Assembly (NCBI GenBank): GCA_009829735.1
Contig: CM020620.1
Location: 25,146,020 to 25,210,019 of the forward strand
Length of the DNA stretch: 64,000 bases
DNA from: Pyropia yezoensis
Taxonomy: Eukaryota > Rhodophyta > Bangiophyceae > Bangiales > Bangiaceae
Direction of reading: 5' to 3'
Positions 3,602-38,214 of the stretch are shown piece by piece; position 1 is the stretch's first letter, and the number at the start of each line of letters is the position of its first letter. Below the pieces are notes generated by a model. The model was not told the origin of the DNA. It saw nothing but the letters and a program-made list of their open reading frames with translations, and did not search any database. Position numbers and translations under genes: made by a program.

Positions 3602-3603
3602 AA

Positions 3604-4073
3604 TGTGGCAAAAACCACAAGCACACACGGCACCCAAGTTGGGGCGGTGTGCTAGGGCTGCCTCCCGTGTTGGGGGAACCGGAAGAAGTGCAAGTCGCAC
3701 ACACTCTGTCCCTGTTGTGGGGCAAACCCCCCACGGACAAACAAGAGGATGGTGTGTGGTCCAACAGTTTCTTGGTCGGGACGGGGACGCAGGGCCAAGC
3801 CCCGCTGTCCCTCCCCTTATCCCCCCAGGGTCCACTCAGAATCTCGCCACTCAGAATCTCCCACCCCAGCACCTGCCCACCGGGCCACACGAAAATTCAA
3901 GACGATAAATGCAGAAAACCCTCAAATCCAAGTTGGATTTACTACTAAGCTAACTATCCCAAACTTAGGGAATATGGACCCAAATGCAGGGGGAGGAACG
4001 GATCAGGCTAGTGGCCTGCCGCCCCTTGCAAGGCACGTGTTGCCCCCCCTACCTGGGGGTCAATACTGCCACA
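3604..4073 (-). repeat. 5' LTR of element 1 (470 bp)
   Basis: Matches 27276-27744 over its full length in reverse complement. It starts TGTGG and ends CCACA, giving the canonical TG...CA ends with a 5-bp terminal inverted repeat. The next sense bases after CA are TT and then a primer-binding site, which fixes the inner edge. The outer edge is fixed by loss of similarity to the other copy. Confidence 0.9.
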
Positions 4074-5194
4074 CCTACGGCGGTGGCGCCCTGGAGAATT
4101 GCCCAGCCGCGCTCAAAAAGCTCGGTCGCAAGCACTGACGCGGCCGTCGTCTCCAAAATGGACAAGACTCCCTCGGGCCAGCCCGACGACATGACGTTTG
4201 TGTCGGCCTTGGCGCCCAGCGCAACCCGTGCGCCCGCGTTGACCATGTACGCCTTCGCCCGGGCGTCCGCGTCGTACCAGACGCCCAGCTCCAGAAAGTC
4301 CCGCGCCTGGTGCTCCAGCGGCAACAGCGCCGCAAATGGAGGCAGTACCTCTCCCTGCGGCGCCGGCGGTGGCGCCACGCGCGCGTCCTCCTGCTCCTCC
4401 TCGTCAGCAGCAGCAGCACCAGTAGCAGCCACCGCCAAGCGCGGCGGTGGTAGAGGGCAACCAAGCGCCGCCCGCCTCGCAGTAGCGTCGAGGGCTCGGG
4501 AGGCCGCCACTGGCGGCACCGTATCGGTGTACGGCCGCGTCGAAGGGTCTACCCCACCGCCGCCCGAGGGAGCACGCCCTGCTGCTTAGGGGCTTTTACC
4601 CACTTGGTTCTTGCCCGCGCCACGCGTGGCCTTGCTGGATCCGCGCGGCGTGCGCTTGGACTCCCCGTCGCTCTTGTCGGCCGCGTTGGCGGCCGCCATG
4701 GCCTGAGGGCGGCGCGCACGGTTGGAGCGCGCATTCTTCTTGGTCAGTGGTCTGGACCCACCACCGCCGCCGTGTGCCGCCCCCGCGACGGACGCTTGTC
4801 GCGTCGCCCGATTGGCGGCGCTGCGGGCGTGGCGCCTCCGAAATGGGGTGGCCGACGTCGAGCCATCCGCCGACCCACCACTACCACCCGCAGCAGCGGC
4901 AGCGGCAGCGGCAGCGGCAGCGGCAGCTGCGGCGGCAGCGGCAGCTGCACGAGCACCTGCACGGGGAGCGGCACCGGCAGCCTCAGCCGCAGCCGCAGCA
5001 GCCGCCAAAGCGCTCGCTGCTGTATCCGTGACTTCTGCGACGGCTGCTGCCGGCGCTGCCGGCGCTGCTGGTGCGGGTGCTGCTGGTGCGGGTGCTGCTG
5101 GTGCGGATGCTGCTGGTGCTGGTGCTGCTGGTGCGGGTGCTGCCGGTGTTGGTTCTGGTGCTGCTGGTGTTGGTGCTGCAGGTGCTGGTTCGGG

Positions 5195-18802: not shown

Positions 18803-19302
18803 NNNNNNNNNNNNNNNNNNNNNNNNNNNNNNNNNNNNNNNNNNNNNNNNNNNNNNNNNNNNNNNNNNNNNNNNNNNNNNNNNNNNNNNNNNNNNNNNNN
18901 NNNNNNNNNNNNNNNNNNNNNNNNNNNNNNNNNNNNNNNNNNNNNNNNNNNNNNNNNNNNNNNNNNNNNNNNNNNNNNNNNNNNNNNNNNNNNNNNNNNN
19001 NNNNNNNNNNNNNNNNNNNNNNNNNNNNNNNNNNNNNNNNNNNNNNNNNNNNNNNNNNNNNNNNNNNNNNNNNNNNNNNNNNNNNNNNNNNNNNNNNNNN
19101 NNNNNNNNNNNNNNNNNNNNNNNNNNNNNNNNNNNNNNNNNNNNNNNNNNNNNNNNNNNNNNNNNNNNNNNNNNNNNNNNNNNNNNNNNNNNNNNNNNNN
19201 NNNNNNNNNNNNNNNNNNNNNNNNNNNNNNNNNNNNNNNNNNNNNNNNNNNNNNNNNNNNNNNNNNNNNNNNNNNNNNNNNNNNNNNNNNNNNNNNNNNN
19301 NN
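18803..19302. other. Assembly gap, exactly 500 N
   Basis: Round-number N block, so its length is nominal. It hides the 5' LTR, PBS and gag start of element A, and probably the 5' part of element B. Confidence 0.99.
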
Positions 19303-21002
19303 ACGGCGGACCTCCGTTGGTCGGCGATGGGCTCGCGCCCATGCCCCCGGTTGAGACCCCTGAGGAACGTGGTTACCCCTCAGGTGGACTCCCGAGGCGG
19401 ACCGAGACTCAACTGGAGTCGTCAATCCACTCCTCGCGGAAACTGTCCGTCGGGAGGCGACCAATGTGTTTGCGGCAGACTTTGCCGGACCTGGTGGTCA
19501 CGATGACGAATACTATTCTGAATCAGATTGTGGCGAGTTTGCCAGATGGCCTCAATGTCCAAACCGGATTGGGGCTTTCGAGCCCGCAGGCACAGGGGGG
19601 ATCCCTCCTCACGCCTATCTCGGGTCGCCCCGAACTGGGAGCGACACCTGTGACTCCCAACGAGGGAGCCACACCATACTCGGTGGGGCGTACGCCCTTC
19701 ATGGGGGAGTTCCCCCCGGAAACGCCGGCGGCTACACCAAGCGCGCCGCGCCGGACTACAGGCACTGAGGGTGAACTTACCCCAGTGCCACAGCGGCTGT
19801 TCCCTCAACGTGAGGTGCCGCCAAAGATCCAGGTAGCCAACCCGGTCTACCAGAGGATCTTTGACTGTGAGACCTACGCCCTCCACAACAAGTCGGTGGT
19901 GTATGGTCCTGACCAGGCCCGAGCCATGGGCCGTGCCAAGAAGAATGCACTTCATTCTTTTGGGCACAAAGCGGAGTGGGATGGAACTCCCCCCCTCCGT
20001 GTCTTTGAGTTCCTACGTCGTTTCACAAAAGCCTGCGACGACAATGCCATAAGTGAAGGCATGGCTTTTTACATGCTACAGGAGTTCACGATGGGCGACC
20101 GACGGACAGAACTTATGTCCATCTTGCCCAGCTCCTCAAGTGGAGGCGCTGGGGAGGTGACTTCCTATTTGGAGCTCGTCAACTGGTTGTTGAGGGCCAT
20201 GGTTGATGAGGCAGCGTTGGCCTCTCAAGTCGAGGAGTTTACGCAAGCCCATCAGGAAGAGGCGGAGGACGAGTTGTCCTTTGCGGAGCGAGTCCGTAAG
20301 CTCAACAATCTTTGTGGGTTTCTTCATCCACAAGCTGTGGTGAAGAGTCGGTTTGTGGAGGGACTCCATTGGTCAGTCCGGATGGAGACCCGGGAGCATA
20401 ACACTGCCCGGGCGACCCTGGCCGAGTTGGCCAGGTTCGCCTATCGCAGAGGCGAGGCCTACCGCAAGTTGCGGGAGGAACAACGCCAGGAGCGTCAGGC
20501 CGAGTTGGCCAAGGAACGGGAGGAGGCGCGCCAGGCCAGAGAGTTGAGAGAGGCACGCCGAATCCGCAAGGAGAGGGTGGTAGCTGCCGTGGGAACTTCC
20601 CAGGGTATCCCTTCGTCTTCCCCAGTTGGGAAGACCCCTCCCGGAACAGACCATCGGTGTTGGAACTGCAACTCCGATGGACACTGGGCATATGATTGCC
20701 CCAAGTTGAGTAAACGCATCCAACAACTTGTTAGGAATGCGAGTAAGAAGTCGGCTACGAACGAAGTACGTTCACGCCGCGAGGGTGGGTCTCGACCGGT
20801 CGTCGCGGTCGCCACACCCTCGGCGGAGGAGGCGGACGCGACGTCCTCGACTCGTCGTCTTCCTCCCCGCCCTCAGATTCGGACGCCAAGTCGGCGGGAA
20901 ACGAATGACCGTTGGGGCTGGTCGTCCGAAGCTCACAACGGCAGCCTCGGGCAAGTGGGCCAGGAGGACGAACCAACCGTGCCGGATACTGCGGCGACCT
21001 AA
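19303..21002 (+). pseudogene. gag: Gag of element A, 5' end in gap, frame-altered 3' end
   Basis: Open from the gap to 21002. Same Gag as element 1: Pro/Thr-rich N-terminus, capsid-like helices (HSFGHKAEWDGTPPLRVFEF), charged stretch, and CCHC knuckle CWNCNSDGHWAYDC at about 20660-20702. At about 20849 element A lacks one base that element 1 has (CCTCGACTC against CCTCGGACTC). The acidic Ser-rich tail and its stop are thus replaced by a readthrough into another frame ending at 21002. The normal Gag end would be at the ATGA at 20905. Confidence 0.8.
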
Positions 21003-24000
21003 GGGAGTCCGCCCACCTCGGGTAGGACACCCCAAGAACGTAAGCCCACGTCGGGTCATCGCGGTGCTGACGGATGAGAACTTCCAGGTGGCTGGACGGG
21101 TGCAACTTGCCCCCGGCTGCGCCTGTTGTGCCCGTATCGTACTTGATACCGGGTCAGGAGCCTCCTTGATACGCAAGTCGCTATTACCAAAGGAGGTGAA
21201 GCTCCAACGCTGGAGGTCCAAAGCTGACCATATGATGGACATCAATGGTGGGGTACTTCCCATCGTTGGTGCCGGGACCCTGCCAACTAGGTTGGGGACC
21301 CATGAGGTCGACGTGACCTATGGTGTAGTTGAGAATATATCGGTACCCCTGCTTCTGGGTACCCCTTATGTTGTTACACAAGTGCCTTTGATTTGTGGCC
21401 CTGAGTACTGGGTCAAGTTGATGAATGGGGAGACTATCCCCATCCTTGGTAAGGGAAAGTCTGTGGCTCCTGTGACAGTTTCACAGTCGAAGCCTGTTTG
21501 CTCTGTGAGGGAAGGGTTTACTGCTACCCTGCGTCTAGCCCGTAAAGTCACGTTGCCCCCCAACTCGGTGGCGCACGTTGACGTTGTAACTGATTATACG
21601 GGGAACGGGTTGGTGCACCCTCACCCCCGTCTTGCTCGCAAGCACCAAGTGCATGTTGCCCTTGGCACGATGGACTCCAAAGCCGGAGTCCCGTGGAGGA
21701 TACAGGTGATGAACCTGAGCTCGTCGCCCCAGTACTTCAAGTCGGGAGCCAAGTTCGGCTATATCGACCAACACGAGGGACCGGTAGTAGCGGTCACCCT
21801 CAACGCGGGCTCAAGTAGCGACCCGAAGTCCGGAAAGGAGAAGCATCAAGCCAAGTCGGCCGCCTCTCCTCGGCCCCATGTGAACATGGAGGGTGTCCCC
21901 CCCAGGTTGAGGGTTCAAGTTGAACGCCTCTTGGACCAATATCACAAGTTGTGGGATGGTCAATTGGGACTCATGAGAGCCACCCAACACCGGATCGAGT
22001 TGAAGCCCGGTGCACCCCCTATACGCCAACAACCGTATAGGGGAGGACCTCGTTCAAGGGCCCTCGTTAATGAGCAAGTTGCTCGCATGGAGGCCCTCGA
22101 TGTGATCGAGGCCAGCAACGCCGAGTGGGCGAGTCCGGTGGTTATCGTCCCCAAAGTTGATGGGACCCCCCGGTTTTGTATCGACTACCGTAAGCTCAAC
22201 GAGAGCACGGTGAAGGACAGTTATCCCCTACCTAGGATGGACGACTGTCTGGACTCTCTGGGGGAGGCAAACGTGTTCTCTACCCTGGACTGTAACGCGG
22301 GGTACTGGCAAATTCCCATTGCCCCGGAGGACAGGCATAAAACTACCTTAACCTGTCACTGTGGTACCTACCAGTGCAAGCGCCTACCGTTTGGTCTGTG
22401 TAACGCGCCGGCAACTTTCCAGCGCGCTATGGACATGATTCTGGCCGGAGTACGGTGGCAGATCTGTCTTGTGTACCTAGACAATATCATTGTGTTCTCC
22501 CGAAGTCCGGAGGAACACATTGGCCATCTTGGCCAGGTGTTCAAGCTACTTGCTGACGCCGGTGTGTCACTGAAGGCGAGTAAGTGCCACCTCTTCACTC
22601 AAGAGGTGGAGTACTTGGGACATGTTGTCCGTCCGGGGCGTCTCAGTGTCAAAGAGAAGAACTTGAGGGCCATTCGTAAGGCTCAGTACCCCCGGACCCA
22701 GACCCAGAAGAGGAGCTTCCTCGGGATGTGTAACGTGTACCGACGTTTCATCAAGGGCTTCGCCAAGGTGGCGAAGCCATTGAATGAGCTAGTTAGCTCA
22801 ACGCTACCGAAGAACCTGCCTCCCCCAAGTCGGGTGGAGCAGGAATCCTTTGAGACTCTTCGGGACCTTCTGCTGAAGCCCCCTGTCCTGGCTATTCCCA
22901 GGTTGGGAGGCCACTACATCCTGGATGTGGACGCCAGCTACGACCAAATTGGTTGTGTGTTGCTTCAGCAGCAGCCGGACAAGGAGTACTTGCCGGTGGG
23001 ATACTTCAGTAAGGGGCTGAACTCGGCCGAGAAGAACTACGGAGTCACCGAGTTGGAAGGACTCGCAGTGGTGTGGGCGGTGACGTCACTTTGTCACCAC
23101 CTAGAGGGTGAGAAGTTCCTCATCCGCTGTGACCACCGCGCGTTGCAGTTCATCTTTAAGACGGACTGTACGAACACTCGTCTCAATCGGTGGAGGGTGC
23201 GACTGGCACCCTTCAACTTTGACATTGAGTACCGACCTGGCAGGCAACATGCCCTTGCCGACGGCCTCTCTCGGGTACCTACCGAGGGGCTGGACACTAA
23301 CCCAGTCGATGAGGACATCCCCATCGTGGGGGTAGTCACGCGCTCGGGTCAGGCGTTGAACCCCGAGGCGCCAGGGAACAAGAAGTACTTGCCCCTGTCC
23401 CTGGACGAGGTGGTGAAGGCCCAGGCCGAGGATCCCTTCTGCAAGTCGCAGAGGGATACACTGGATACAGTGGTGGAGACGCGTTTCTTTCTGGGAGACG
23501 ATGGCCTCCTCATGAGGAGGGGGGTATTCCAAGGGGCTGAACAACTTGTCGTCCCCGCATCCCTCAAGGACAGTATCCTTGAGAGGGAGCACAACGCTCC
23601 CATGGGTGGACACCTGGGGTCTAGTAAACTGTACCAGACCCTGAGGACCAGGTACTACTGGCCGTCCATGGTGGTGGACATCTACAGTTAGGTGGCTGCC
23701 TGCACAAGTTGTGCACAGAACCGTCTGATGGAACGGCGGCCTAGTACGGCTATGCTATTGTTCCCGGCCAAGGAGCCCTTCGCCGCGTTGGCGATGGACA
23801 TCCTTGGGCCACTGCCAGTAACCGAGGAGGGCAACCAGTACCTCCTGGTCATCTGTGACCGCTTCACGAAACTTACGCGAGCGATCCCACTGGCAGAGAT
23901 CACGGCCATGTCGGTCGTGTCAGCCTTCCTAGATCACTGGGTTGCCGCGTATGGCATCCCGGATAGTACACTATCGGACAATGGACCGCAATTTGCGTCT

Positions 24001-24888
24001 GTACTGTTTCAGGGAGTGCTGGATATCTTGGGGGTTAAGGCAAACTATGCCACCCCCTACCACCCACAAACTAATGGGCAGGTGGAGCGCTTCAACAAAA
24101 CTATTGTTAGGCAGCTGCGCCACTATGTGAGTGAGCACGTGAAGACGTGGGACCAATACATTTCTATTCTTACTACCGCCTACAATTCGCAGGTTCACTC
24201 ATCTACCGGGGAAGTACCCCGCGCTTTTGTGACCCCCCGTCGTGTGCGGTCTATTGCCGTGCGGCGGTCGCTCCCAACTAGGGAGGATGGTGGCAGTACG
24301 CCTACTCCTACTGAGAGTAAGGCGGAGTTCGCTGCTAGGCTTGAAAACCTCATCCCTAAAGTCAGGGCTGAGATGGACAAAGCACAAAAGCGCTACGAGC
24401 GTACCTTTGACAAAACGGTGCGCAATGCTAAGCACGTCCCCGAGCAGGGTGACTGGGTGCTGGTACACTCGCACACCCCAACTGGGGGTAAGGTGGTATT
24501 CCAGACGAAGGGGCCGTACCAGGTCCTTCGTACTGATGGGCGGCGCTTCACCATCGAAAGTGACGATGGGGTCCGCACAGTGAACGGACAGGACGTGGTC
24601 AAAGTTGCACCACCGCCTGCAGGCGACCCAGCATGGGCGCGTGCTTTGGAAGCGTGGCGCCTCCCCCCACTGCCTGCGGCCAAACAGGGCCCGCAGGAGT
24701 ACGTGTTTGATACGTTCATCGACCACGGATGGGATGAAGACACTGACCGCCTCATGTTGAGGGTGCGTTGGTTCGGCTACAAAGCCAAGGACGATACGTG
24801 GGAGTATGTGGAGGACCTTCCCGCTGAGAAGGTCCGGGCGTACTGTGCCCGGAATGAGATAGACCCTAACAGCCCTCCCTCAACGTGA
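20905..24888 (+). pseudogene. pol: Pol of element A: protease, RT, RNase H, integrase, chromodomain; one nonsense codon
   Basis: Counting from the ATG at 20905: protease DTGSG at residue 81; RT with FCIDYRKLNES, STLDCNAGYWQIP and the box YLDN at 524-527, where the family has YxDD; RNase H first Asp (LDVDAS) at 676. In the integrase, the first zinc-finger His precede and CxxC follows a TAG at 23689-23691. The core Asp965, Asp1025 and Glu1061 fit D,D-35-E. A C-terminal chromodomain (FDTFIDHGWDED, then LRVRWFGYKAKDDTWE) marks the chromovirus clade and would steer integration to chromatin. Both RT and full-length integrase should be inactive in this copy. Confidence 0.92.
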
Positions 24889-24993: not shown

Positions 24994-26937
24994 CTAGGCA
25001 CGCATGCTAGACTCTCCCACTCCACGGCCCTCGCCCTCACGTGGAGGCGAGCGGCGAGACCCACGCCGATAACGGTCTCCACTCGTTGGAAGGGGCGGCG
25101 GCTCCAAGTCGGAACCGTCGCGCCCTTCACGGTCGCGCAAGTGGCGCCGACCGTGGCTACTCTTCTGCCTGGTCTTGCGCGCAAGTTTGCGACGCAGACG
25201 CTGGACAGACTCCGTCTCCGACGGGGTAGAGGACTCCGAAGCAGAGTAAGACAACTCGTCTTCCGACACGGAGGGAGAGCGCCGCGAGTGTCGGCGACGA
25301 CGGCGAGGAGGCGAGTATGCCCGGCTCGCGCGACGTTTGCCACGCCCAAGTGGGGCTGGCTGGGGCTTAATAGCCCCAATGCGAGCCAACTCGGCTGTCA
25401 TAAACTCCGCCACCGACTCGCAACTCGCGGTCGCCACTGCAGTACGAACGCGCTCCTCAAGTTGAGGAGTCTCGGAACTTTGGAGGGTTGCGGTCGACGC
25501 GGCCAACCAGGAAATGGTGCGCTCCAACGTGGTGATCATCATCTCTGAGGTTAGAGGCGTGGGCGGTAACACCAACTTGGGGTATACCGTCAGGAGGGTG
25601 GCGCCCAAGTTGGGGGACACGGGGGTGGATGACTCCACGGCCACGCTGATCGGGATGTTCCCGTGGGGCTGGAAAGGAACAGGAGGAAGCGGAGGGGCAC
25701 GCCGAGGTGGCGGTACCCGGGTATAACTGCGACCCCGACTTGGGGCCCCCGCAGTAGGTTGAGTCATATGGTCATCATATGAGGGCACAGCCATAACTAT
25801 GGGCTTGTCCGGGGGTGGCGCAGTGTGGCGATCCACCCCCGGGGCATACGGGTAGTCCCCGATGCCCAACCCCTCTCGTAGGACCACACGGCCGTCGTGA
25901 AGTTCACGAGCGACCCACACGAACTGGCGAAGTGCGCCATCGTCCTTGGGCCCACGAGTGGGGCGGCGCAACATGTGCTCAATGCTCTCCCACTCGATGA
26001 ACTTATGGAGCCGGTGCATCTCCTCAAGTAGAGTGAGTTGTCCTGATGAGCACCCCTCAGCAACTAGCTGAGGGGTGAGCTGTTCCAAACCTTGGATGAG
26101 CCGGAGGGGGAGATGCCAGAGCATCCCCCGCCGCTGAACACAAGACACCCAGGTCGACATGACCTCGAGGAGCCACTGGGTGGCCAACATGGCCCACACC
26201 AGGTGATCAGGGCCAGCCGTCAACATGACGGAGCCGAAGTGGTCAAGCAACCGTGGCAGCAACGCCGGGAACCCGTAGGGGACCTCAACTTGAGGCCACC
26301 ACTCGGGCTTCTTCGGATAGTACTGCTCCTTGCTGGCAGCAGACTGTTGAGGAAACTCAAGTTGAGCCGAGGTCACCAAGTAGGGACCTCGCCGGAAGTC
26401 TTTCTCCATCCGCACATCAAAGTGATGAGTGTGCGGATCGGCCTCGTGGAGGTACGGAGGGCGAGTTGCCACCGCGTCCCAAGTAATGGTCGGCAAGTCG
26501 CCGGGACCCGGAATAGTTCCCCCGCGGTCCACCATGGCCTTGGCCCGCTGTATGTCTTCGACCTCCTCGTCGTCCAGGAAGGCAAACTGGTCCGTCCTGA
26601 AGCCGGCAGGGAACCCGACCCTACGGGGATACTTCTCCCGTAGGCGGTCCCATACCCGACCCATCGCTGCGCCAAGTCGGCCACAGCGAAGAACAGTCAA
26701 CCCCTCTTCATAGAGAGGCCAAGCGGGGTAAAACCACCGCCCCAAGGCCTCACGCGGGACAACTTGTCCCGCCTCCGGGGGAGACCCCGCCGTCAACCCA
26801 AAGCCGGGTGACGCGGGAGTCCCATCCCACGGAGCAATCGCGGAGCCCCCGCCGGAAGTCCCGGCGGGTGCTGCACCGTAGGTGGTGTCCTCCATACGCT
26901 CATCTAGAGAGTCCGTCTCCACTCCCGGGGTCGCCAT
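24994..26937 (-). CDS. Antisense accessory ORF of element A (family shared with element B)
   Basis: 647 residues from ATG at 26937, reading opposite to gag-pol and ending 106 bp from the pol stop; the frame is open 57 codons further without ATG. Layout: acidic and Gly/Pro-rich N-terminus; a folded-looking core around residues 60-370 (REALGRWFYPAWPLYEEGL; PYLVTSAQLEF; YYPKKPEWWPQVEVPYGFP; WAMLATQWLLEVMSTW; FIEWESIEHMLRRP); a Pro-rich linker; a predicted helix; and an Arg/Ser-rich C-tail resembling SR or nucleic-acid binding tails. Element B has a related ORF of nearly equal length at the same place and orientation. It matches no retroelement protein I recognise. Function unknown; antisense ORFs are known in some plant Ty3 elements. 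Confidence 0.75.
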   Translation of the reverse strand: MATPGVETDSLDERMEDTTYGAAPAGTSGGGSAIAPWDGTPASPGFGLTAGSPPEAGQVVPREALGRWFYPAWPLYEEGLTVLRCGRLGAAMGRVWDRLREKYPRRVGFPAGFRTDQFAFLDDEEVEDIQRAKAMVDRGGTIPGPGDLPTITWDAVATRPPYLHEADPHTHHFDVRMEKDFRRGPYLVTSAQLEFPQQSAASKEQYYPKKPEWWPQVEVPYGFPALLPRLLDHFGSVMLTAGPDHLVWAMLATQWLLEVMSTWVSCVQRRGMLWHLPLRLIQGLEQLTPQLVAEGCSSGQLTLLEEMHRLHKFIEWESIEHMLRRPTRGPKDDGALRQFVWVARELHDGRVVLREGLGIGDYPYAPGVDRHTAPPPDKPIVMAVPSYDDHMTQPTAGAPSRGRSYTRVPPPRRAPPLPPVPFQPHGNIPISVAVESSTPVSPNLGATLLTVYPKLVLPPTPLTSEMMITTLERTISWLAASTATLQSSETPQLEERVRTAVATASCESVAEFMTAELARIGAIKPQPAPLGRGKRRASRAYSPPRRRRRHSRRSPSVSEDELSYSASESSTPSETESVQRLRRKLARKTRQKSSHGRRHLRDREGRDGSDLEPPPLPTSGDRYRRGSRRSPPREGEGRGVGESSMRA

Positions 26938-27258
26938 GGCTTTCCCCAAGTTGGGGAGAGACGCTCTGGCTATCGCGGCACGAGACCCGCCTCGAGTTGA
27001 GGGGGACTCGGATCGTGGGTATACGGGTGGCCTCCCCAGCGTGGGGCGGCCCAGTGGAAGGTGAAGGGGAGGTGGTGGTGATGGTGAAGTGTGAACTGAG
27101 GAGAGCAAGCTGCCGAGTGGGCAAGCTTGAGGAGAGGGCCGGTCAACGAGACCGCCTCCACATCCGTGTTACGTACTCGATGGGGGACAGCAAGTCGCGC
27201 CCCCAACGCCGAGACGTGCGTTTACACACTCCCTCACAGGGCCGACCGGGTCGGTCGG
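26938..27258. other. Leader of the antisense ORF, between it and the LTR
   Basis: About 320 bp without its own gene. The antisense frame remains open over its left half. A promoter for the antisense gene would have to lie here or in the LTR read backwards. Confidence 0.4.
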
Positions 27259-27275
27259 AACTGAGGAGAGGGGAG
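27259..27275 (+). other. Polypurine tract of element A
   Basis: AACTGAGGAGAGGGGAG directly abuts the TG of the 3' LTR, the normal position of the plus-strand primer. Confidence 0.8.
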
Positions 27276-27744
27276 TGTGGCAGTATTGACCCCCAGGTAG
27301 GGGGGCAACACGTGCCATGCAAGGGGCGGCAGGCCACTAGCCTGATCCGTTCCTCCCCCTGCATTTGGGTCCATATTCCCTCAGTTTGGGATAGTTAGCT
27401 TAGTAGTAAATCCAACTTGGATTTGAGGGTTTTCTGCATTTATCGTCTTGAATTTTCGTGTGGCCCGGTGGGCAGGTGCTGGGGTGGGAGATTCTGAGTG
27501 GCGAGATTCTGAGTGGACCCTGGGGGGATAAGGGGAGGGACAGCGGGGCTTGGCCCTGCGTCCCCGTCCCGACCAAGAAACTGTTGGACCACACACCATC
27601 CTCTTGTTTGTCCGTGGGGGGTTTGCCCCACAACAGGGACAGAGTGTGTGCGACTTGCACTTCTTCCGGTTCCCCCGACACGGGAGGCAGCGCTTGCACA
27701 CCGCCCCAACTTGGGTGCCGTGTGTGCATGTGGTTTTTTCCACA
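27276..27744 (+). repeat. 3' LTR of element A (469 bp)
   Basis: Full-length match to the element 1 LTR, TGTGG...CCACA ends, preceded by a polypurine tract. It is followed by GTCGC, which would be the target duplication if the hidden 5' LTR is preceded by the same five bases. Confidence 0.92.
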
Positions 27745-28989
27745 GTCGCTCTAGCACCAGCGAGACTAGTTCCTCCAGCTCTGAGGAGGGATATGACTGG
27801 GACGCATCTCCTGGTCCCACCCGGCGCAGGCTAGTCCAGTTTGACTTCCCTGCCCACCAAGTGGGGGATGCCACCCTGAACAAGGTCACGTATTGGGGTA
27901 ACTACCGGCTGGAAAACCAAGACCAAGGTTACACTCGGAAGATGGCCAAGAACATGGCATCCCTGAACTGGCGAATGCAGCCGAGCTTCGGGGGACATCC
28001 TAAGTTTTCCGGGAAGAGACCGGCGCTTATCTTTGCCTTCCTGCGCCGGTTTGTCAAGGCATGCAAATACAACGATGTGTGCGAGGGCAAGGCACTCTAC
28101 CTCCTGGTTAACTTCATGACCGGAGAAGCGGAACAGCGGTTCGCACAGGTTCTACCAGATTCTGCCGGACACATTGTCGGGCGTACCGTTGGGAGCTATC
28201 CGGAAGCAGTCAACTGGCTCCTGTCTAACTACGCTGACGCGGACTCCCTGCGCAAGGCAGTGGGCAGGTTGAACCGGGCAACCATGGAACGACAAGGGGC
28301 TCTAGAGGCCTTCGCCCGCCGTGCCCGGGAGATGAGCGAGGCTTGTGGCAACGTTTGACCTGAGGACAGGCTCAAGATGATCTTCTCGGAAGGGCTTCCT
28401 GAATACCTTCAAGTGGACGCGGAGAACTACAACCAGGAACATCAAAAACATACCTTCCAGCAGTTGATGGCCTACACCCAGGGCAAGTACCGGCAAGCTA
28501 AGGCCCTCCAAGCTCCCATGGTATCAACTCCCAAGCCGTTGTCGCGAGTTCGTCCCGGACCCGACAAGTATAAGGGAGGATAGCCCTGTACCGGCACTCG
28601 CAGTTGGCGAGGCCTCACCCGTGGGGTCAGGAGACAAGTGGAGCGGCTTCGTTTCTAAGGAGCAACCTTCCCTAGTCGCCCCCAAGCAGGTCAAGAACCA
28701 GCGGTTCCGGTCTTGTTGGCTGTGCCAGAAAGAGGACCACATGTCCTACCAGTGCCCGACCATTCCCAAGGACCTCCAGGAGAAGCTCAAGCGTCAAGGA
28801 CTGGTGTTTGCAAAAGCAGTCAACTGGGCTGACCGGCGAGCACCCTCCAAGATGGACAAGGCACAGGTACACGCAATCCGGGTGGCAACCTTGCAGAGCA
28901 TCACGGAGGCTCTGGCAAGGGAAGCTCCTACGGATTTTGACCTGGAGACCGAAACCTCTAAGGAGTCCTCGGACCCGGGAAACGAGTAG
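27745..28989 (+). pseudogene. gag: Gag of element B, truncated and frame-broken
   Basis: Enters in frame from the LTR junction with a Ser-rich segment, then capsid-like sequence (FSGKRPALIFAFLRRF, YPEAVNWLLSNYADAD). An in-frame TGA at 28356 and an in-frame TAG at 28581 interrupt it. After a frame change the nucleocapsid follows with a CCHC knuckle, CWLCQKEDHMSYQC, at about 28715-28760, ending at 28989. The N-terminus was separated by the insertion of element A. Confidence 0.82.
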
Positions 28990-29117
28990 GGCAGGCGCTC
29001 TCCCCAAGTGTCTTCCCGAATCTCCGACGGCAGGGTACTTCTACCCGTTCTTTCCTTGCGTGCCGGGAGAAAGGACGGCAGTTACCTGCTCAACTCGTAG
29101 CCGCCTGGACACCCTGT

Positions 29118-29830
29118 TTGTTCAAGGGGACCTTGCTTGTCCTGCGTAAGGAAAACCTCAAGATTAATGCTCGTATGCGTGTGGGGGATAGCCTCCCCCA
29201 AGCTGTTACTTCGGTGGTTGACACGGGAGCCGGACCAAGCGTCATCACTGAGAACCTGCTACCTCCGGGCTGGCGTCGACATGCCTGGAGAGCGCCTACC
29301 AGGACCCATATTGCAGACGCTTCGGGTCAAACCCTACGACCGCTTGGCCGTCTTCCTGTCGCCATCTATGTCAACAATGGACCAATGCTTTTTTCCTTTC
29401 TAGTAGTCAAGACTCTATCAGTCCCCCTCATCCTAGGCTGGGACTTCCAGAAGCAGCATGTCAAGAGTATCCTACCCGGAGAAGGAAAGGTGCAGTTCAA
29501 CCATGGGTTTGTGTCACCGGTGCTGGAGCATCTGGACGCCAAGGTTCGTGTAGTCAAGAACAAGAAGGAACGCATCCCACCCTCTACCTTGACTCTCTTC
29601 AAACCGGTGCTCCTACCTCCTCGTTCGGAGACCAAGGTTCAAGTAACCACCCGGACTACGGGTCAATGCCTGATCAACGGACGTAAGGAATTTCTGGCGA
29701 AACACCGGTTATACTTGGCCCACGGACATCACAAGAAGGTGGAAAGGCACACCCCATTCTCGGTGCTAATCGTCAACGTGAGCCGGAAGCCGATAACCCT
29801 CGCCAAGGGCACTCGAGTTGGCGCAAGAGC
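29118..29830 (+). pseudogene. pol: Aspartic protease region of element B pol
   Basis: Open frame with VVDTGAGPSVI (catalytic Asp codon 29220-29222), AIYVNNGPMLF and the LILGWDF strand typical of retropepsins. No ATG at the start; it is presumably expressed as part of a Gag-Pol fusion. A frameshift near 29820 separates it from the RT frame. Confidence 0.8.
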
Positions 29831-30940
29831 CTTACCGGGGGTCTGCCCGTGCCATGAGCAGGGAGGACGTCTTGAACCTGCAACAAGAACTGGCATCCAG
29901 CCTAACGGCCTTAGACGTACCTCCGGAACAAGGGCAGGCTGGCAGCGTCACCCCGAAGCCCGATCAAGCACCACCCGGGATGCCGAAGGTCAAACAAGAA
30001 AATGTTCCTCCCGACTTGAAGGAGGCACTGGAGAGGCTTCTCCAGGAATATCGGCACCTGTGGTCTGGAGAGCTGGGCAAGATGGACGCCACTCTACACC
30101 GGATTCAACTCAAGCCAGATGCCAAGCCAGTACACCTGCAACCATACCGGGCTGGACCTCATCGCCGGGATGAGATTGAGAAGCAGGCTAACAAGATGCT
30201 CAAGATGGATGTCATCGAGCCGTCTGATGGCGAGTGGGCCTTCCCGGTGGTAGTTGTCCCGAAACCTGGCGGTCACTTCCGTTTCTGCGTTGACTACAGG
30301 CGCCTGAACGAGATGACGGTCAAGGATGTATACCCGATACCCCGGATGGACGATTGCATCGACTTTCTTGGTGATGCCACCCTCTTCTCAACGCTGGATT
30401 GTAATGCCAGTTACTGGCAGATCCCTCTGGCTGACGAGGACAAGGACAAGACCACCTTCACGTGCCACCTGGGACTATTCCGGTGCAAGCGTCTTCCCTT
30501 TGGTCTCACCAATGCTCCGGCGACCTTCCAGAGAGCCATCGACATCATCCTGTCGGGGCTAAGGTGGAGAACATGTTTGGTCTACCTGGACGATATTATC
30601 GTTTTCTCCAAGACTCCGGCGGAACACCTGGAGCACCTTCGAGAGGTCCTGGCGCTCCTGTCTAAGGCTGGAGTTACCCTGAAGGCCGAGAAGTGCCACC
30701 TGTTTGAGACTGTAGTGGAGTACCTGGGGCACGTGCTGAGTCCGGGGGAGCTCCGGGTCCACGAGAAAAACATCAAAGCCCTCCGGCATGCACGGCAACC
30801 TAAGACCCAGACGGCACTCAAGAGCTTTCTGTGTATGTGCAACGTCTACCGCCGGTTCGTACGGGACTATGCCCTGATTGCCCGGCCATTGACCAAGCTC
30901 ACCAGCAAAAAGCTCCCCGCACAACTCCCGGTGTTCGACG
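29818..30940 (+). pseudogene. pol: Reverse transcriptase region of element B pol
   Basis: Contains FCVDYRRLNEM, STLDCNASYWQIP, LPFGLTNAPATFQR and an intact YLDD box (30583-30594), then thumb and connection sequence. The frame shifts near 30930-30950 into the RNase H frame. Confidence 0.88.
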
Positions 30941-33074
30941 AGAGCAGACCGCTGCCTTCGAAGAGCTCAAGAAGCGCCTGACCACAACTCCAGTACTGGC
31001 GTTACCCAAGCGGGAGGGCCAGTTCGTCCTGGAGACTGGTGCCTGTGGCGTCCAGGTGGGGTGTTCTCTACTCCAGCAGCAACCTGATGGGCACATCCTC
31101 CCGATAGGCTATTACAGTTGCGTCCGGACTCCAGCCGAGATGAATCATTCCACGACGGAGCGCGAATGCTTGGCGGTCGTCTGGGCTTGCTTCCTGTTAC
31201 GCCCATATCTTGAAGGACAAGAGTTCCTCATCCGCACGGATCACGCCAGCCTAAGGTGGCTGCTTTGCATGGACAGCAGCCAAGGGAGAGTCGCCCGGTG
31301 GCTCCTACGCCTTTCGGAGTTCAAGTACAAGGTGTGCACCAGAGCAGGGAGGGAGCACCACTGCGCCGACACTATGTCCCGGTTGGAGACTCCTGCAGCC
31401 GACACTGGCCCTATCCCGGAGGAAATACCTTGTTTTATCCTCACGAATGTCGGACGTGGCTGGCATGCTCCCCTATATGAGACACCTGAAGCTCACCAAC
31501 TGGCAACCATTCACCGGATGCTGGAGGCACAACTGACGGATCCTCAATGCTTGGAGCTTCGCCACCAAATGGACCTGAACCGGAATAGTCGCTTCTCCGA
31601 GTCTAGAGATGGACTCCTGATACGGGTGTCACCCTTTGATGGGGCAACACAAGTCTACGTACCCCGGAGTCTACGAGCTGACATCCTCCGTCTGGAGCAC
31701 TCGTCTCCCCAGGCAGGACATCCTGGCATCAATCGGATGTATGCCTCGATGCGACGACACTACTACAGGGAAACCATGGCCAGTGACGTCCATAAGCACC
31801 TTGAGGCTTGTGTCTCCTGTGTAAGGAACCGGTTGTCCCAGAGGAATAAGACTTCTAAGCTACGCCTATTTCCTGCGGCGGAGCCCTTTGCAAGCCTAAG
31901 CATGGACATCCTGGGGCCCCTACCTGAAACATCCAGTGGCAACATATGCCTGCTCATCATTTGTGACCGGTTCTCCAAGTTCACTCGAGCGATCCCGCTG
32001 AGGACCATTACGGCCCTGGATGTCACGTCAGTCTTCTGCGAGTACTGGATAGCTGCCTGCGGCCCTCCAGACTCCGTCTTAGCCGACAATGGCCCCCAGT
32101 TTGCATCCCTGTTCTTTCAAGGAGTCTGTGACTTGATGGGTATCAAGAACTTGTTCACCACGACGTATCACCCGCAAACGAACGGCCGGGTGGAACGATT
32201 CAACCGGACCCTGGTGGACAAGCTACGGCACTACGTGGAGGAGCATCAAGAAGACTGGGACGAGCCCCTGGCTGTCCTCACGCTAGCCTACAACGCCCGA
32301 GTTCACCGGAGAACGGGGGTCGCTCCACTCGACTTTGTCACCCCAAGGCGGCTGACCAACTTCTCCCTGGAAAGAATACCAGACGGTCTCCAGCCTGCAC
32401 TGAAGTCAGGTCCTAAGGCAAAGGATGAGTTCCTGGAACAACTGAAGCTCCTGCTCCCAAGAGTCAAGGAGTCAATCTCAAAGACCCAGGAGCGATACAA
32501 GCGGGACTATGACAAGGGTGTCCGGGAAAAGAACAAGGAACTGGGTGGTGGCGACTGGGTTTTTGTGGACAGTCATAGCAAGACTCGGGGGAAGCTGGAC
32601 TCCAATACGGATGGGCCCTATGAGATCCTGAATACGGTCGGCTGGACCTTCCTTCTGGACGTGGATGGCTCCCCGTACCGGGTGAGCAGCGACCATGTCA
32701 CCCGAGCTCCACCGTCAAGCAAACGGGATTTGACCCGGCGCAAGCGGGCCGCAGTACCCTGGTTATCCCAAGAAGAAGGCCGCGAATATGTCTACGTCAA
32801 GTTTGTCGACCACGCCTGGAGGGACGGGCGCTTGTACCTGCGAGTACGCTGGTTCGGTTTCAACCCTGCGGATGATACCTGGGAACCCTCAAACCGGTTA
32901 TCCATTGCGGACGTCTGCGCCTACACGCGACGGACCGGGATTGAGGGCACTTCGGTGGCCAGAGCCGGCAAGATCCTGGAATCGGACTCGGAGGATGACC
33001 AGGAGGAAGGAGCTGATCAAGACCCGCGGGACGAGCCGAGCTCACCCGCAACAGACGCGGAACAAGAAGATTGA
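30930..33074 (+). pseudogene. pol: RNase H, integrase and chromodomain of element B pol
   Basis: RNase H is recognised from LLQQQPDGHILPIGYYS, the Glu in ERECLAVVW and FLIRTDHASL. The first catalytic Asp is missing: VLETGACG has Gly (31038-31040) where the family has Asp (TDAS). The integrase has HHCC, then the core Asp at 31905, Asp at 32085 and Glu at 32193 (D,D-35-E). A chromodomain (VKFVDHAWRDGR, RVRWFGFNPADDTWE) is followed by an acidic tail. Confidence 0.88.
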
Positions 33075-33405
33075 GAAGAAGGGAACGGGTGTATCAAGGA
33101 AAACACGCAATGCAAGCATGGAACTATCAAGAAAAACAAGCACCCGCTCGAGCAACCCTTCTATCCGCCTCTTCCCTCCTCACTCCTCCCTAGACTCTCA
33201 TCCTCCCTGCCTCCAAGGATGACTCCCGGCGCGGACGCTGCGCCGCAGGAGCGTCCTCCAGTGCCGCCTCGGCGGCACGATGGGACCCAGGGGAAGGCGG
33301 GATGACGTAGTGCGGTGGACGAGGCGCTTCCACGTATGACGCCACCGGAACACTACCGGTAGTTGCCGGGCGCTCCCGCTCATCCAGAAATACCTGTCGG
33401 CGCCC
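33075..33405. other. Spacer between pol and the antisense ORF of element B
   Basis: 331 bp in which the two convergent genes end. Pyrimidine-rich around 33165-33215. No gene seen. Confidence 0.5.
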
Positions 33406-35337
33406 CTAGAAGCTAGTGAAAGTCTCCGACCACTGCTGGGCCAAGTCATGCCGCGTCAAGGTCGCCAGAAGTTCACCAACCACCGGGCTGTCCGACATCT
33501 GGCCGCTGTCCGCGCAAGCAAGCACCCGGTCGACCACGTCGTTCAAGACGCTGGCATGTGTGCCCAGAACCAAGGAAGACCCGACGCCTTCGACCTGCAC
33601 CGGAAGACGACCCAGCTGGTCCTCAATCATGCCGACGTCATACTGGTCGCTCGTCGGGCTACCTTGGTTCAGGTACCAGTCAGGCACCCGAAAGCGGGAA
33701 AGGCGCAGAGTCGGCGCCGGGATCTCGAACCGACTCGAGGTTGCCACCACCGGACGGTCAGCAATAGCCCCAGAAACCGAAGTCCCCAACTCAAGGGGGG
33801 GCACAGGGCCGCCGACAATTGAAGAAGGCGCTCGAGGAGGAACGGCCGGAGTAGTCCGCGACCGGACGGCCACGCCAAGACTCGCTGCAGACAAGCGCGG
33901 TGCCGGAGGACCTTGAAGTACCGGCACAGCCAGAGCGGGGCGCAACCGCGCCGGCGACGGTTCAGGCAAGGCCACCGGGGCGACAGGCGCAACTGGAGGA
34001 AGTGGGGCCACCGCAGACGCCCGACCGACCGCCGCGGCCCATCCCGACTCTTGCACCGGCGGCCCAGTTGGCAGGAGATCGAGGGCGACCGGAGCAGGAA
34101 GGCTGCCTAGCTGCGGCCACGCCGGCAGCGGCGTCGCCAGCTGCACCTTGGCCGGAGAAGACTGGTAGACCACCTGCACCCAACCTGAGCCATCCCGACG
34201 CGGACTGTTCTGGTCGGCGATCGCGTTCAAGAAGCTCCGGTCATGCACCGGGAGCTGACGCTGGAAGTCAATCATCGCCTGAAAGAGCTCCTTGTACTCC
34301 TCGTCCTGGCTGCACAGGAAGTCGACGGTCAACTTGTCGACGATCCAGACCATCAGGAGATCAGGGAGAAGCCAAAGCCGGTTAGACACCAAAACCTCAT
34401 GGAGCCAGTGGTTGGCCGCCGAGACCGTCATCACGGAAGTGTACATCATGTACGGGATGGAATGGAAGAAGCCCTTGATCGACGCCTGGGTCAAGGCGTC
34501 CAGAAAGTACCAGGTGAAGGGGATGCTGGATGGAGCAAACCCGGCCGGGATCTCGACCTCCTGCTGCTGCGGGATGACCTTGGGGAAGTACGCCGCCCGG
34601 TTGGCCTTGTCCAGCTTCCAGAACTCTTGATGGTTGCAGCTCACGATGAAGTCACGCTGGCGCCCGCGCCGCTCGCCTTTCTCCCGCGCCGGCGACAACA
34701 CGGAGTACTTCCGCGTCAAGAAAGGTGGCTCCAGAGCGACCATGCTCGGACGGGGATCACAGTTCAGGCTCCCCGACCCCTTGAGCGCCTCGTCCCAGAC
34801 CTTGAGTGCCCGATGGACGTACCCTTCCTCCTCTGGCCACCGGAGAACGGACGCAGACGCGCGACTCTCGGTCAAGGGCAGATCCAGCACCAGCGCGAAG
34901 GGGAGATGTTTCAGGCGAGCAACCCAAGAGGAACCCGAAAAGCTCCGGGAGCGGTCTTGAGCCAGGCGCATCTGGTCCGCCGCATGGAGACGAGTCTTGT
35001 ACATCTCCGTCAAGACTCCGCGCTGGAGTTCCTTGCGCCAGATGACCAGGCACTCCTGCTGGCACTGGGCCGCGCTGGCGTTGCCGACCACCGTAGAGTA
35101 GCGCCGGCCCGCCAGAGGATCCTGCCCAAGAAGCATCTCCGGGAGACCCGCCGGGGGGGTCTCGACCGGGCGCGACGCTGAAGCCGAGGAAACTCCATCC
35201 GCCTCCGCCGTGGCGACCGACGCCGGCACCGACACCCGAGGAACCGGAGGCAGGAGAGGGGCACGGCCGCCCGAGCTCTCCTCTGCAACACTCGTCGCCG
35301 GAACCGCGGGCTCAACTTGGATCTCGGAACTGGACAT
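33406..35337 (-). CDS. Antisense accessory ORF of element B
   Basis: 643 residues from ATG at 35337 (MSSSEIQVEPAVPATS). The frame is open another 109 codons upstream, but that part reads like LTR-adjacent DNA. Layout mirrors the element A antisense protein: acidic Ser/Ala/Pro N-terminus; core with RDFIVSCNHQEF, AAYFPKVIPQQQEVEIPAGF, VSAANHWLHEVLVSNRLWL, and an Asp/Glu-rich helix; a Pro-rich linker; and a C-terminal helical domain. Spacing of YfPK, VE-I/V-P-x-GF and the W-L-x-EV segment agrees with A. Unlike A, it lacks the Arg/Ser tail. Function unknown. Confidence 0.75.
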   Translation of the reverse strand: MSSSEIQVEPAVPATSVAEESSGGRAPLLPPVPRVSVPASVATAEADGVSSASASRPVETPPAGLPEMLLGQDPLAGRRYSTVVGNASAAQCQQECLVIWRKELQRGVLTEMYKTRLHAADQMRLAQDRSRSFSGSSWVARLKHLPFALVLDLPLTESRASASVLRWPEEEGYVHRALKVWDEALKGSGSLNCDPRPSMVALEPPFLTRKYSVLSPAREKGERRGRQRDFIVSCNHQEFWKLDKANRAAYFPKVIPQQQEVEIPAGFAPSSIPFTWYFLDALTQASIKGFFHSIPYMMYTSVMTVSAANHWLHEVLVSNRLWLLPDLLMVWIVDKLTVDFLCSQDEEYKELFQAMIDFQRQLPVHDRSFLNAIADQNSPRRDGSGWVQVVYQSSPAKVQLATPLPAWPQLGSLPAPVALDLLPTGPPVQESGWAAAVGRASAVAPLPPVAPVAPVALPEPSPARLRPALAVPVLQGPPAPRLSAASLGVAVRSRTTPAVPPRAPSSIVGGPVPPLELGTSVSGAIADRPVVATSSRFEIPAPTLRLSRFRVPDWYLNQGSPTSDQYDVGMIEDQLGRLPVQVEGVGSSLVLGTHASVLNDVVDRVLACADSGQMSDSPVVGELLATLTRHDLAQQWSETFTSF

Positions 35338-36089
35338 GATGTCCAGAATCCGGGGGAACGGGAGGGTCAAGGTGAAGGAGGAGGGGGGGGGGCAGGATTG
35401 GGGCAGGTGATCGTACTCGGGGTGAAGACGCTCGACCTCGGCACCGGTGTGGACGTGCTCGAGGCTGTGCACGGTGGCACCTGGTTCGGCCCGAGGACGT
35501 GCCGGACTGAGGAGAGAGCTATGTAGCATCCATGGCCCCGACTTGGCGCCAACCCGGGACTGCAACCAGAGGGCACCAGGTGCCAGAACACGCCCGCCGT
35601 GTGGTGATGGTTGGCGGCCGTGGCCCGTGCCCGGCACTGGGATGCGGTGGAGTACGCTACCCACACGTGAGAGAGGGATTTCTAATAGGTTTTTGCATAC
35701 TTGTGAGGGACTTGACTTGAGAGAATTTGGGTGTGAGATTAGAGAGTGGGAATAAAATTAGTAGTGATAGTGGCCCCCGACCTGACGAGGTTAGACTCGG
35801 GTCGGGGCCACTCGGGGGTATGGGGGGGCTACCTGGCCAACGTGCCGAGGCTCCCCCCGATGCACGTTAAGAGGGACAGCCAGGCGCCCTTGGCCCGCGC
35901 CCTCAGGAAAAAGACAACTGCGCGTTTGCTTTCCTCTTCCCCGTGTGCACTACCGTGCGTATCTGTTTGCTCTGCGAGCAGGCACGTGAGGCAACAGGCA
36001 TACCACTCTCGTAGTTCCCCTTTCTGTGTTACCTGTCCCTTTCCTCCGAGGGATATTGACACGTGTCTGAGAGGATCGAGTTTTATACC
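35338..36089 (+). repeat. Probable 3' LTR/untranslated end of element B
   Basis: A purine stretch GACTGAGGAGAGAG (about 35504-35517) resembles the element A polypurine tract and is soon followed by TGTAGC. AATAAA lies at 35751-35756 and a strong stem-loop at 35770-35811. A 5' partner is not in the window, so the LTR status is inference. Confidence 0.45.
35770..35811 (+). terminator. Stem-loop after AATAAA in the element B 3' end
   Basis: GTGGCCCCCGACC (35770-35782) pairs with GGTCGGGGCCAC (35800-35811), with one bulged C and a 17-nt loop, 14 bases past AATAAA. It could be part of the R region or a 3'-end processing structure. Confidence 0.4.
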
Positions 36090-36440
36090 ACACAATCCCC
36101 CCACAACGACACAAGAAGATGGTGTGTGGGCCAACAGATTCTTGGTCGGGACGGGGAAGCGAGGCCAAGCCCCTTTGTCCCTTCCCTTATCCCTCCAGGC
36201 TCCTCTCCGAATCTCGCCACTCAGAATCTCCTACCCCAGCACCTGCCCACCGGGCCACACGAAAATTCAAGACGATAAAATGCGGAAAACCTTCAAATCC
36301 ATGTTGGATTACTGTCAAGCAAAGTATCCCCGACTTAAAAAATTCGAGATCAAATGCAAAGGGAGAAACGGGTCAGACCAGCTGTCTCCCGATCCCGTTT
36401 GGCGCGTCCTGTCCCCTGCGTTGGGCCCTGTGTTGCCACA
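36090..36440 (-). repeat. LTR fragment related to the A/1 family, inverted
   Basis: On the plus strand it reads in the same direction as 3700-4073 (the antisense of the LTR), including GGCCACACGAAAATTCAAGA and ending TTGCCACA at 36440. More diverged than the A/1 pair, and the first 100 or so bases of the LTR are missing. Confidence 0.7.
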
Positions 36441-36489: not shown

Positions 36490-36872
36490 TTTGATTTCGG
36501 ATGTCCCAAAGGCAATGATACTTTACTTGATAGTAAATCCAACGAGGATTTGAAGGTTTTCTGACTTTTATCGTCTTGGATTTTCGTGTGGCCCGGTGGG
36601 CAGGTGCTGGGGTAGGAGATTCTGAGTGGCGAGATTCGGAGAGGACCCTGGAGGGTTCAGGGGAGGGACAGCGTGGCTGGGCCTCACTTCTCCGTCCCGA
36701 CCAAGAAATTGTTGGCCCACACACCTTCATATTGTTTCGCGGTGAGGGGTTTGCCCCACAACAGGGATAGCTTGTGTGCGACTTGCACTTCTTCCGGTTC
36801 CCCCGACACGGGAGACAGCCTTTGTGCATTGCCCCAATTTGGGTGCTGTGTGCGCGAGTGGTTTTTGCCACA
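36490..36872 (+). repeat. LTR fragment related to the A/1 family, sense
   Basis: Matches the element A LTR from its TTTGG/AGTAAATCCAAC part through GTGTGGCCCGGTGGGCAGG to GTTTTTGCCACA at 36872. It forms an inverted repeat with 36090-36345. No internal region of an element follows. Confidence 0.75.
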
Positions 36873-38214
36873 CATTCGTCGGACGATATACAGTTGGAAA
36901 TGGCGGCGACTATAAGACGCGAAAAGGCGCGAAGCGCCCCGACTCGCTCTGGATTTTGAGGCGCGCGTTGGGGGCGAAAAAATTTAGCCATATGGCCAGC
37001 TGGATGATTCCCAGAAGTCGAAAGGGTCCCTGGCGGACCAGAACCAAGCACAAGCCGCAAGCCACCAAAACTAATTATATGGCCAGCTCATTAGGGGGAC
37101 TACCGTGTTACGTTCAAAAAATTATTTGGTGGGGGGCTACAAGGGTGCTTTCAGGGCGCGATGACGGATCTCGCAGCGCTAACAAGCCGCGGTTCAGCGC
37201 CGCCGCCCGGCGCCCTTTCAAAAAGAGGGGCGCGATGCGCAGCCCTGCCCTCCTGCACCCATCCTGCCCGCTGTCTCCAACGTGGCACGAATCTGGGAGA
37301 ACACACTGGTAGAAGTGCTCCATATGTGGCGCCTTACGATAGAAGCCTCATCTTTTTTGAGCCCCATGGAGCCGAGGTAGCGGGCTTCCAAGAATGTGCA
37401 TTGTAAAGTCCCCCCGACTGCACTGTCAGCAGCAACGCCGATCGACATGACACTGCTCTGCTGGAAAACGGCCACAACGGCTAGGGCCCGGACGCCACAC
37501 CGTCGCCTTCACGCGCAGCTGAGGGAGCACCGACGGCAACCGACAAGCGCTCGCTTCTCCCACCGGCTCTTGCGTACGGGTCGACATGCGCTACGTTTGT
37601 TCATGCGAGGCGGTCCCAGCAGGTGCGTTGGTCTGGGCAGCTCTCAACGACTGAGCCAAGTGTCTGGCCCACGTGGTCCTTCTTGCGTTCTGTTCTTTGG
37701 CTACCAGTGTGGCGTCACCAGCTTGCCTATCTTTCGGTGTCCCGCGTCTCACCGCCCCGATGCACTGATACCCACCGGCTGTGCTACCGGTGTCCCCATC
37801 ACGCCCACACGAACAGCGCACTGGTCATGCATCTCTCCACGTCTTTTTGCGCTGCTCTCTACGTACTCATCGATCCCCACCGAGTTCTAGCCCGGTCTTC
37901 ACGGCCGATCAGTGCAGTCGCACCAGGGGGCACCGCGCCAGTCCCGGTAGCTGTGAGGGTCCGATTGACAACACCCGTGCGGTGGAATGGACCGCGCTGA
38001 TAGGAACTGCAGAGCAGCCTGGTACCGCTGTTGACTGTGCACTTGGCTCGTTAGCGTGTACGTGCTGGCACTTTAAGTCGCATGCGCAGCCTAGTGTGGC
38101 TCGCTGTCGGGTGGGCGACGGCATCATTCACTGTTCAGCTGCAGTGAAGGTGGTCGGGGAGGGGACGGTAGTGTGGTGGAGGGGGCAACGCGGACGGATT
38201 TTGAAGAGGAGGCG
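36873..38214. other. No gene supported; left flank of the split transposase
   Basis: A/T-richer DNA with two copies of a CATATGGCCAGCT-like word (36989 and about 37077). The word TTTGGTGGGGGGCTAC at 37125-37140 is loosely echoed in inverted form at 42679-42693. ORFs here are short with no recognised domain. Confidence 0.4.

Follow-up and report, generated by a model that had tools for sequence, protein, structure and literature searches.

Several long terminal repeat (LTR) retrotransposons carry an accessory gene on the strand opposite to gag and pol, and the cases described so far come from flowering plants and a fungus. In flowering plants, antisense open reading frames (ORFs) with a TRP28 domain are reported from 97% of the recently active Retand clusters; the domain is described as restricted to flowering plants, and the origins discussed for it include both a captured host gene and a backward-inserted element fragment (PMC11963269). 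A review of antisense ORFs covers Grande, RIRE2 and Retand as well as the fungal element Boty, reports nuclear localization and transcription from its own promoter for Grande GENE23, and relates that antisense RNA pairing or silencing has been proposed for plant elements, where RNA and protein modes may coexist (PMC7264820). The same review places the antisense promoter of human T-cell leukaemia virus (HTLV) inside the 3' LTR (PMC7264820), and the HTLV antisense gene is also discussed in PMC11963269. A Boty-like element is presented with gag, ZnF_C2HC, RP, RT, IN and CHROMO together with brtn (PMC4227169), and an article in Virology by Zhao et al. (2011), with a title naming 'the additional antisense gene brtn', is cited in PMC8365987. 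The present analysis concerns a comparable arrangement in the red alga Pyropia yezoensis, where a stretch of 64,000 nucleotides (the window; 25.146-25.210 Mb of contig 3 in the searched genome assembly of 107.48 Mb and 11 contigs) holds two Ty3/gypsy chromovirus elements, A and B, each with one long ORF antisense to pol.

The best explanation, held with moderate confidence, is that A and B are sister families which keep an ancestral antisense protein-coding gene, the product of which is probably a nuclear accessory protein of a red-algal chromovirus clade. The two elements are arranged as follows.

19344..24888, plus strand: gag and pol of element A, in overlapping or adjoining ORFs (zf-CCHC 25 bits, RVT_1 117.7, RT_RNaseH 98.8, H2C2 44.4 and rve 47.1 bits)
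24994..26937, minus strand: antisense ORF A, 647 amino acids, with an N-terminal part, a core common with B (about residues 124-310), a Pro-rich linker and an Arg/Ser-rich basic C-terminus
26938..27275, no strand assigned: non-coding stretch from the ATG of ORF A to the 3' LTR, with a purine-rich tract at its end
27276..27744, plus strand: 3' LTR of element A, TGTGG...CCACA, 469 bp
27745..33074, plus strand: gag-pol of element B without its 5' end, in several frames in this copy (broken or natural frameshifts)
33223..35337, minus strand: full extent of antisense ORF B, corresponding to a 705-codon frame of other copies
33406..35337, minus strand: antisense ORF B as it stands in this copy, 643 amino acids, with an in-frame stop at 33406-33408
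35522..36092, plus strand: 3' LTR of element B, TGTAGC...ACCACA, 571 bp

The original prediction had named the ORFs of 647 and 643 residues, and its coordinates, strand and lengths are exact. So is the position that it gave them between pol and the 3' end, as each occupies a stretch of about 2.4 kb from the pol stop (24888 in A, 33074 in B) to the 3' LTR.

The Retand/Tat elements (RIRE2, Grande with gene23) share with A and B the Ty3/gypsy type, a long region between pol and the 3' LTR with an antisense ORF in many copies, and a constraint on that ORF like that on the other element genes. They differ in their flowering-plant hosts, in that Retand is not a chromovirus, and in the TRP28 family PF04195, which was not detected in A or B. 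Boty brtn is likewise an additional antisense gene of a chromodomain-bearing LTR element, but in a fungal host, and HTLV likewise has an antisense accessory gene; the likeness to both is by description and not by sequence comparison. The Boty-like CHROMO element with brtn shows that antisense genes were already known, as a type, from chromodomain elements. A search of the open-licence literature found no title on a red-algal antisense gene of this kind, which is weak evidence of absence.

Homology of the two antisense genes

The two antisense proteins share one alignable region. In a single pairwise BLASTP comparison, residues 156-288 of A match residues 200-337 of B with 38.5 bits, 26% identity and an E-value of 6e-7, and none of 2000 local shuffles of B reached this score (best 30.8 bits). 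The two profiles, both of them shallow, align over 170 columns with a score of 43.0, and none of 150 column shuffles scored above 33.0, although the probability is just 56%. The profile match on which the original prediction had let the homology depend thus exists, but it is modest. The common order of motifs that had been noticed by eye is real, and the EF pair, Y-Y/F-P-K, VE-V/I-P-x-GF and W-x-x-E-V-M/L all lie within the alignable region, the last of them in register in the profile alignment and out of register in the BLASTP alignment.

The elements themselves are more closely related than the antisense proteins, which are less similar between A and B than are pol and gag. The reverse transcriptases (RT) are 61.7% identical over 316 residues, the region from RNase H to the zinc finger 39.7% over 295 residues, the integrase (INT)-chromodomain region 46.6% over 395 residues and gag 31.6% over 187 residues (E 3e-25). 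The families are distinct, as had been proposed, but their independence was overstated. From these values A and B are judged to be sister families of one chromovirus clade, and because a single inheritance would then explain the common gene, it was most likely inherited once rather than acquired twice.

A recently captured host gene, or a backward-inserted fragment of another element, could instead be hitch-hiking in this place; the reverse orientation fits a nested insertion, and both origins have been discussed for TRP28 (PMC11963269). Such an origin is unlikely, as both sister families have the gene in the same position and it is still selected. A gag origin was tried and rejected, since comparison with the gag of the elements themselves gave no convincing similarity (lowest E-value 0.017 for B, against the gag of A, and 0.15 for A). 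Among 5.8 billion proteins each antisense protein has just one close relative, P0003 for A (95-97%) and P0004 for B (92% over the searched region), in searches that require shared 5-residue words; one of these searches was limited to scoring the 8000 candidates with the most words in common.

Constraint on the antisense frame

Many long ORFs within the window look spurious. The antisense ORFs might likewise have arisen by chance, the DNA being GC-rich, or might merely shadow a gene on the sense strand. The length of the antisense ORFs speaks against it: the longest ATG-started ORF in spacer A has 647 codons as against at most 362 in 500 dinucleotide shuffles, and that in spacer B has 643 codons as against at most 490 in as many shuffles. 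Sense ORFs lying wholly inside the spacers reach 183 amino acids in A and 312 in B. A chance or shadow origin is further contradicted by the homology of A and B set out above and by the codon-position pattern that follows, and its probability is close to nil.

Between ORF A of the window and the copy L002 there are 54 differences, which fall on the three codon positions as 6, 6 and 42. The ratio of nonsynonymous to synonymous substitution rates (dN/dS) of the antisense frame is 0.076-0.088 between the window and five listed copies, while the other five frames range from 0.17 to 4.8; the sense frame S1 gives a weaker echo (0.17-0.36), as expected for a shadow of the antisense frame. As a yardstick the INT-chromodomain region of A has values of 0.101-0.133 in six of seven copies, the seventh (L015, 0.676) being dropped as misaligned by gaps; the pol divergence of L002 and L008, spoiled by gaps, was not used. 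Set beside the published aORF-3R, both elements have the long antisense ORF between pol and the 3' LTR, and in A this ORF is conserved like the other element proteins.

In ORF B the antisense-frame dN/dS has a median of 0.242 and a range of 0.068-0.752 (276 pairs from 24 rows; six of the 30 rows, L032, L040, L048, L049, L050 and L055, were excluded as rearranged or cut loci), and the antisense frame is the lowest of the six in 253 of the 276 pairs. By region, eight listed pairs gave 0.107-0.190 for the core and 0.179-0.286 for the tail. The antisense frame is on these codon patterns judged to be under purifying selection, which in A is about as strong as in pol (integrase).

This pattern also bears on the possibility that the antisense strand works as RNA, pairing with gag-pol RNA and feeding silencing or limiting copy number, with the ORF incidental. 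Such a mode has been proposed for plant elements (PMC7264820), and the position and orientation of the A and B genes would suit it. RNA function does not predict that 42 of 54 changes between the window and L002 lie at third codon positions, nor dN/dS values of about 0.08 (A) and 0.24 (B) that lie below those of the other five frames in the listed pairs, and control by RNA alone is distinctly improbable.

Copies of both genes are abundant in the genome, with at least 150 scored matches for A and at least 150 for B, and the match lists, ranked best first, are filled by A and B copies. The full-length ORF A is without stops in 68 of 68 scored copies (ranked best first, from 3633 first-look candidates), the A core in 149 of 150 (best 150 of 3017 candidates) and the B core in 146 of 150 (best 150 of 1716 candidates); the A copies are nearly identical to one another. 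With the window copy counted, the 3' end of pol lies to the left of the antisense ORF in all 30 A loci and in 24 of the 30 B loci. Presence in two families, purifying selection and these numbers bear out the earlier proposal of a retained accessory gene of the chromovirus lineage, and the comparison of dN/dS between copies that it had called for falls on the same side.

The open frame proposed as ORF B is present as described, but the window copy is cut by an early stop, and 61 further in-frame residues that match the C-terminus of other copies are lost from it. The longer common end is reached in 18 of 30 loci, seven of which have exactly 705 residues from the first ATG of the open frame. At C2:16967002-16975647 (L048-L051) the core of the B antisense ORF and the LTR are repeated head to tail with a period of 2673 bases; at L049, L050 and L051 no pol 3' end was found beside the ORF, and the frames are open for 555-749 codons.

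The encoded protein and its probable role

ORF A has three clusters of basic residues in its Arg/Ser-rich tail (KRR-534, RRRRR-545 and RRK-582), and RRRR occurs towards the C-terminus of P0004, which is related to B but longer. Together with the analogy to Grande gene23, these clusters favour a nuclear role directed at nucleic acid. A strongly hydrophobic, membrane-like stretch was found in neither protein, the highest Kyte-Doolittle mean over 19 residues being 1.23 in A and 1.59 in B. The latter result bears on a structural or envelope-like protein for particles or for cell-to-cell transfer, a role that the location of the gene, in the env position of retroviruses, and a Pro-rich linker that could suit a structural protein would both allow. 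It has little probability, since a membrane stretch is lacking; the gene also lies on the opposite strand, and no sequence match to solved capsid or envelope proteins was found beyond one at chance level in the PDB sequences, a minor capsid protein fusion (E 0.58, 39 positions); another search of the PDB sequences gave none at E 1.

The remaining family searches were likewise empty: NCBIfam gave a single chance-level match, for B (E 0.29), and PHROGs no match up to E 1. The core of ORF A suggested Transposase_28, a resemblance that no test confirmed. All tests for membership of the TRP28 family (PF04195) were negative, and a relationship is not claimed. A genome search for PF04195 returned no candidates, and as control genomes also gave no match over the cut-off it had no positive control; hmmscan of the ORF proteins gave no family up to E 10, within the sensitivity that the HMMER filters allow. 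Of the six conserved TRP28 residues reported in PMC11963269 (G, P, L, P, N, F) at most three in A or four in B are in register, which at least 116 of 1000 shuffles match, and a flexible search for them gave no hit. The protein family is apparently new and has no detectable relationship to TRP28; it may or may not share a remote ancestry with TRP28 or brtn.

The preferred explanation, a nuclear accessory protein retained from an ancestral antisense gene, would run as follows. The common ancestor of A and B would have had a gene antisense to pol, located between pol and the 3' LTR, which both families retain. Transcription would proceed leftward from a promoter that lies within the 3' LTR or next to it. 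The original prediction had likewise placed a promoter near the 3' LTR and named silencing control, particle assembly or transport as possible functions; these parts of it are conjectural. The stretch 26938..27275 would house the 5' leader or promoter of the A gene, if it has a promoter of its own; such a promoter would let the element make the antisense protein independently of gag-pol RNA. The protein is most likely a nuclear accessory factor, which would bind chromatin or the nucleic acid of the element and may regulate expression or a nuclear step of retrotransposition, perhaps working like Grande gene23, the TRP28 proteins or the retroviral antisense proteins, to which a relationship is not shown. 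A nuclear regulator ranks ahead of an envelope-like role, and also of antisense control by RNA alone, with which the codon pattern is at odds.

Several observations count against this account. In A, of 435 pairs 266 have a synonymous divergence (dS) above 0.005, and in just 163 of these does the antisense frame lie strictly below all five others; the 237 of the 266 that do not involve the window have a median dS of 0.012 and a median dN/dS of 0. The copies share ancestry, and part of the low dN/dS could thus be inherited from a few active source copies. Plain divergence between the window copy of A and L009 or L030 is 2.9-3.0% in the ORF, 3.4-3.5% at the integrase end and 6.2-6.5% in the stretch from the ORF to the LTR, but it is 2.6-2.8% in the LTR and 2.9% in the 105-base gap after pol, so that non-coding DNA does not always change faster than the ORF. 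As plain divergence fails to separate coding from non-coding DNA, the case for constraint on a protein rests on the codon pattern.

The copy lists, being ranked best first, also overstate how many copies are intact. The original prediction had taken copies without the ORF as evidence against a retained gene; when A copies were instead chosen by their pol end, ORF A sequence was found in all three examined, out of 39 other pol-end matches, but none of the three is intact, one having a frame break and a gap, one being cut and one split by a stop. In a comparison by eye of 12 of the 39 pol-end matches with the best 150 ORF A cores, none lay at the expected distance, a mismatch that, given the broken or cut ORF in those three copies, is taken to reflect the best-first ranking. 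As to the protein, the shortened ORF B of the window is without any run of three basic residues, and no fold or domain could be assigned to either protein from sequence searches of Pfam, NCBIfam, PHROGs or the PDB, none of which rose above chance.

A broader reading is put forward tentatively and with low confidence. It holds that one clade of red-algal chromoviruses encodes a protein regulator of its own, a new family expressed from its own antisense promoter and acting in trans on all copies; that the Ty3 elements of plants, fungi and red algae gained their antisense accessory genes independently, or else inherited them from a single ancient module that has diverged beyond recognition; and that self-regulation by an antisense protein might be a general Ty3 strategy. 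The red-algal case offers a third, distant instance in which to study why antisense genes recur in Ty3 elements, one with two abundant families, clear purifying selection on the gene and a protein not detectably related to TRP28. The number of scored matches per family in a genome of about 107 Mb and the near identity of the A copies provide material for expression and proteomic tests.

Element borders, other chromoviruses and the rest of the window

Both elements have the order protease, RT, RNase H and integrase of Ty3/gypsy chromoviruses. The protease of A is a weak match (Asp_protease_2, E 0.13), and that of B reaches 23.6 bits for RVP, above the cut-off of 20.7. At the C-terminus of integrase, the expected place, the Chromo profile scores 20.5 bits in A and 21.1 bits in B, below the Pfam cut-off of 25.1. 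In this copy of A pol is interrupted by a stop codon at 23689-23691, after the H2C2 finger and before the core of the integrase.

Of 29 other A loci, 28 match the window as far as 27744-27748, the 3' border of A, with varied flanks beyond, and in the remaining locus the match stops at 27714 at a run of N. For B the match ends at 36090-36097 in 29 of 29 other loci; the left border of its LTR was set with the help of its initial TG and of the unit that is repeated at L048-L051. Element B begins sharply at 27745, abutting the end of the A LTR, and in the B copy L062 the point matching 27745 is preceded by 32 other letters and then a run of N. From this sharp start and the differing letters, element A was most likely inserted into element B. 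The 5' part of B, including those 32 letters, was not found anywhere in the window.

Exactly 500 N at 18803-19302, at the 5' end of element A, look like a scaffold gap. A second, partial copy of A lies on the minus strand at 1943-4074; its 5' LTR (3604-4074) is 98.3% identical to the LTR at 27275-27744. Directly after this 5' LTR, at 3541-3620 on the minus strand, stands TTTGGTAGAGCAGCAGGGG, a possible primer binding site with a TGG start shortly after the LTR. Two A-like LTR fragments, one of them inverted and both 85-87% identical to the A LTR, lie outside the 3' end of B (36093-36376 and 36531-36872).

Other chromovirus loci that were read in the genome are built differently. A search with the Pfam chromodomain, in which the best 150 of 2351 candidates were scored, gave up to 66.5 bits, compared with 20-21 bits for A and B with the same profile in another search. 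At three loci, L064, L065 and L066, the first and last of which are related, a purine tract and TGTAAGGA come immediately after the pol stop, leaving no room for a spacer or ORF before the apparent LTR. The longest ATG-started ORF antisense to pol has 141 amino acids at L064 and 122 at L065; at L066 an ATG-started ORF of 560 amino acids is plainly the RT of another element, and the RT-like ORF that runs antisense downstream of the chromovirus, given as 569 amino acids, was read, by eye, as a neighbouring insertion. Judged from these three loci, all of them without the spacer, chromoviruses of this genome do not carry the antisense gene as a general property. At positions 1020-1996 of L064 the LTR and leader of an A element lie inverted beside the LTR-like region of the other chromovirus, which suggests that element A may insert into other chromoviruses.

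Elsewhere in the window, an ORF of 594 amino acids at 38173-39957 has a weak SAM-like match near its N-terminus (SAM_TNK, 21.5 bits; cut-off 25), and a tandem repeat of four copies with a period of 144 bases lies at 41752-42425, inside the minus-strand ORF 40415-42484.

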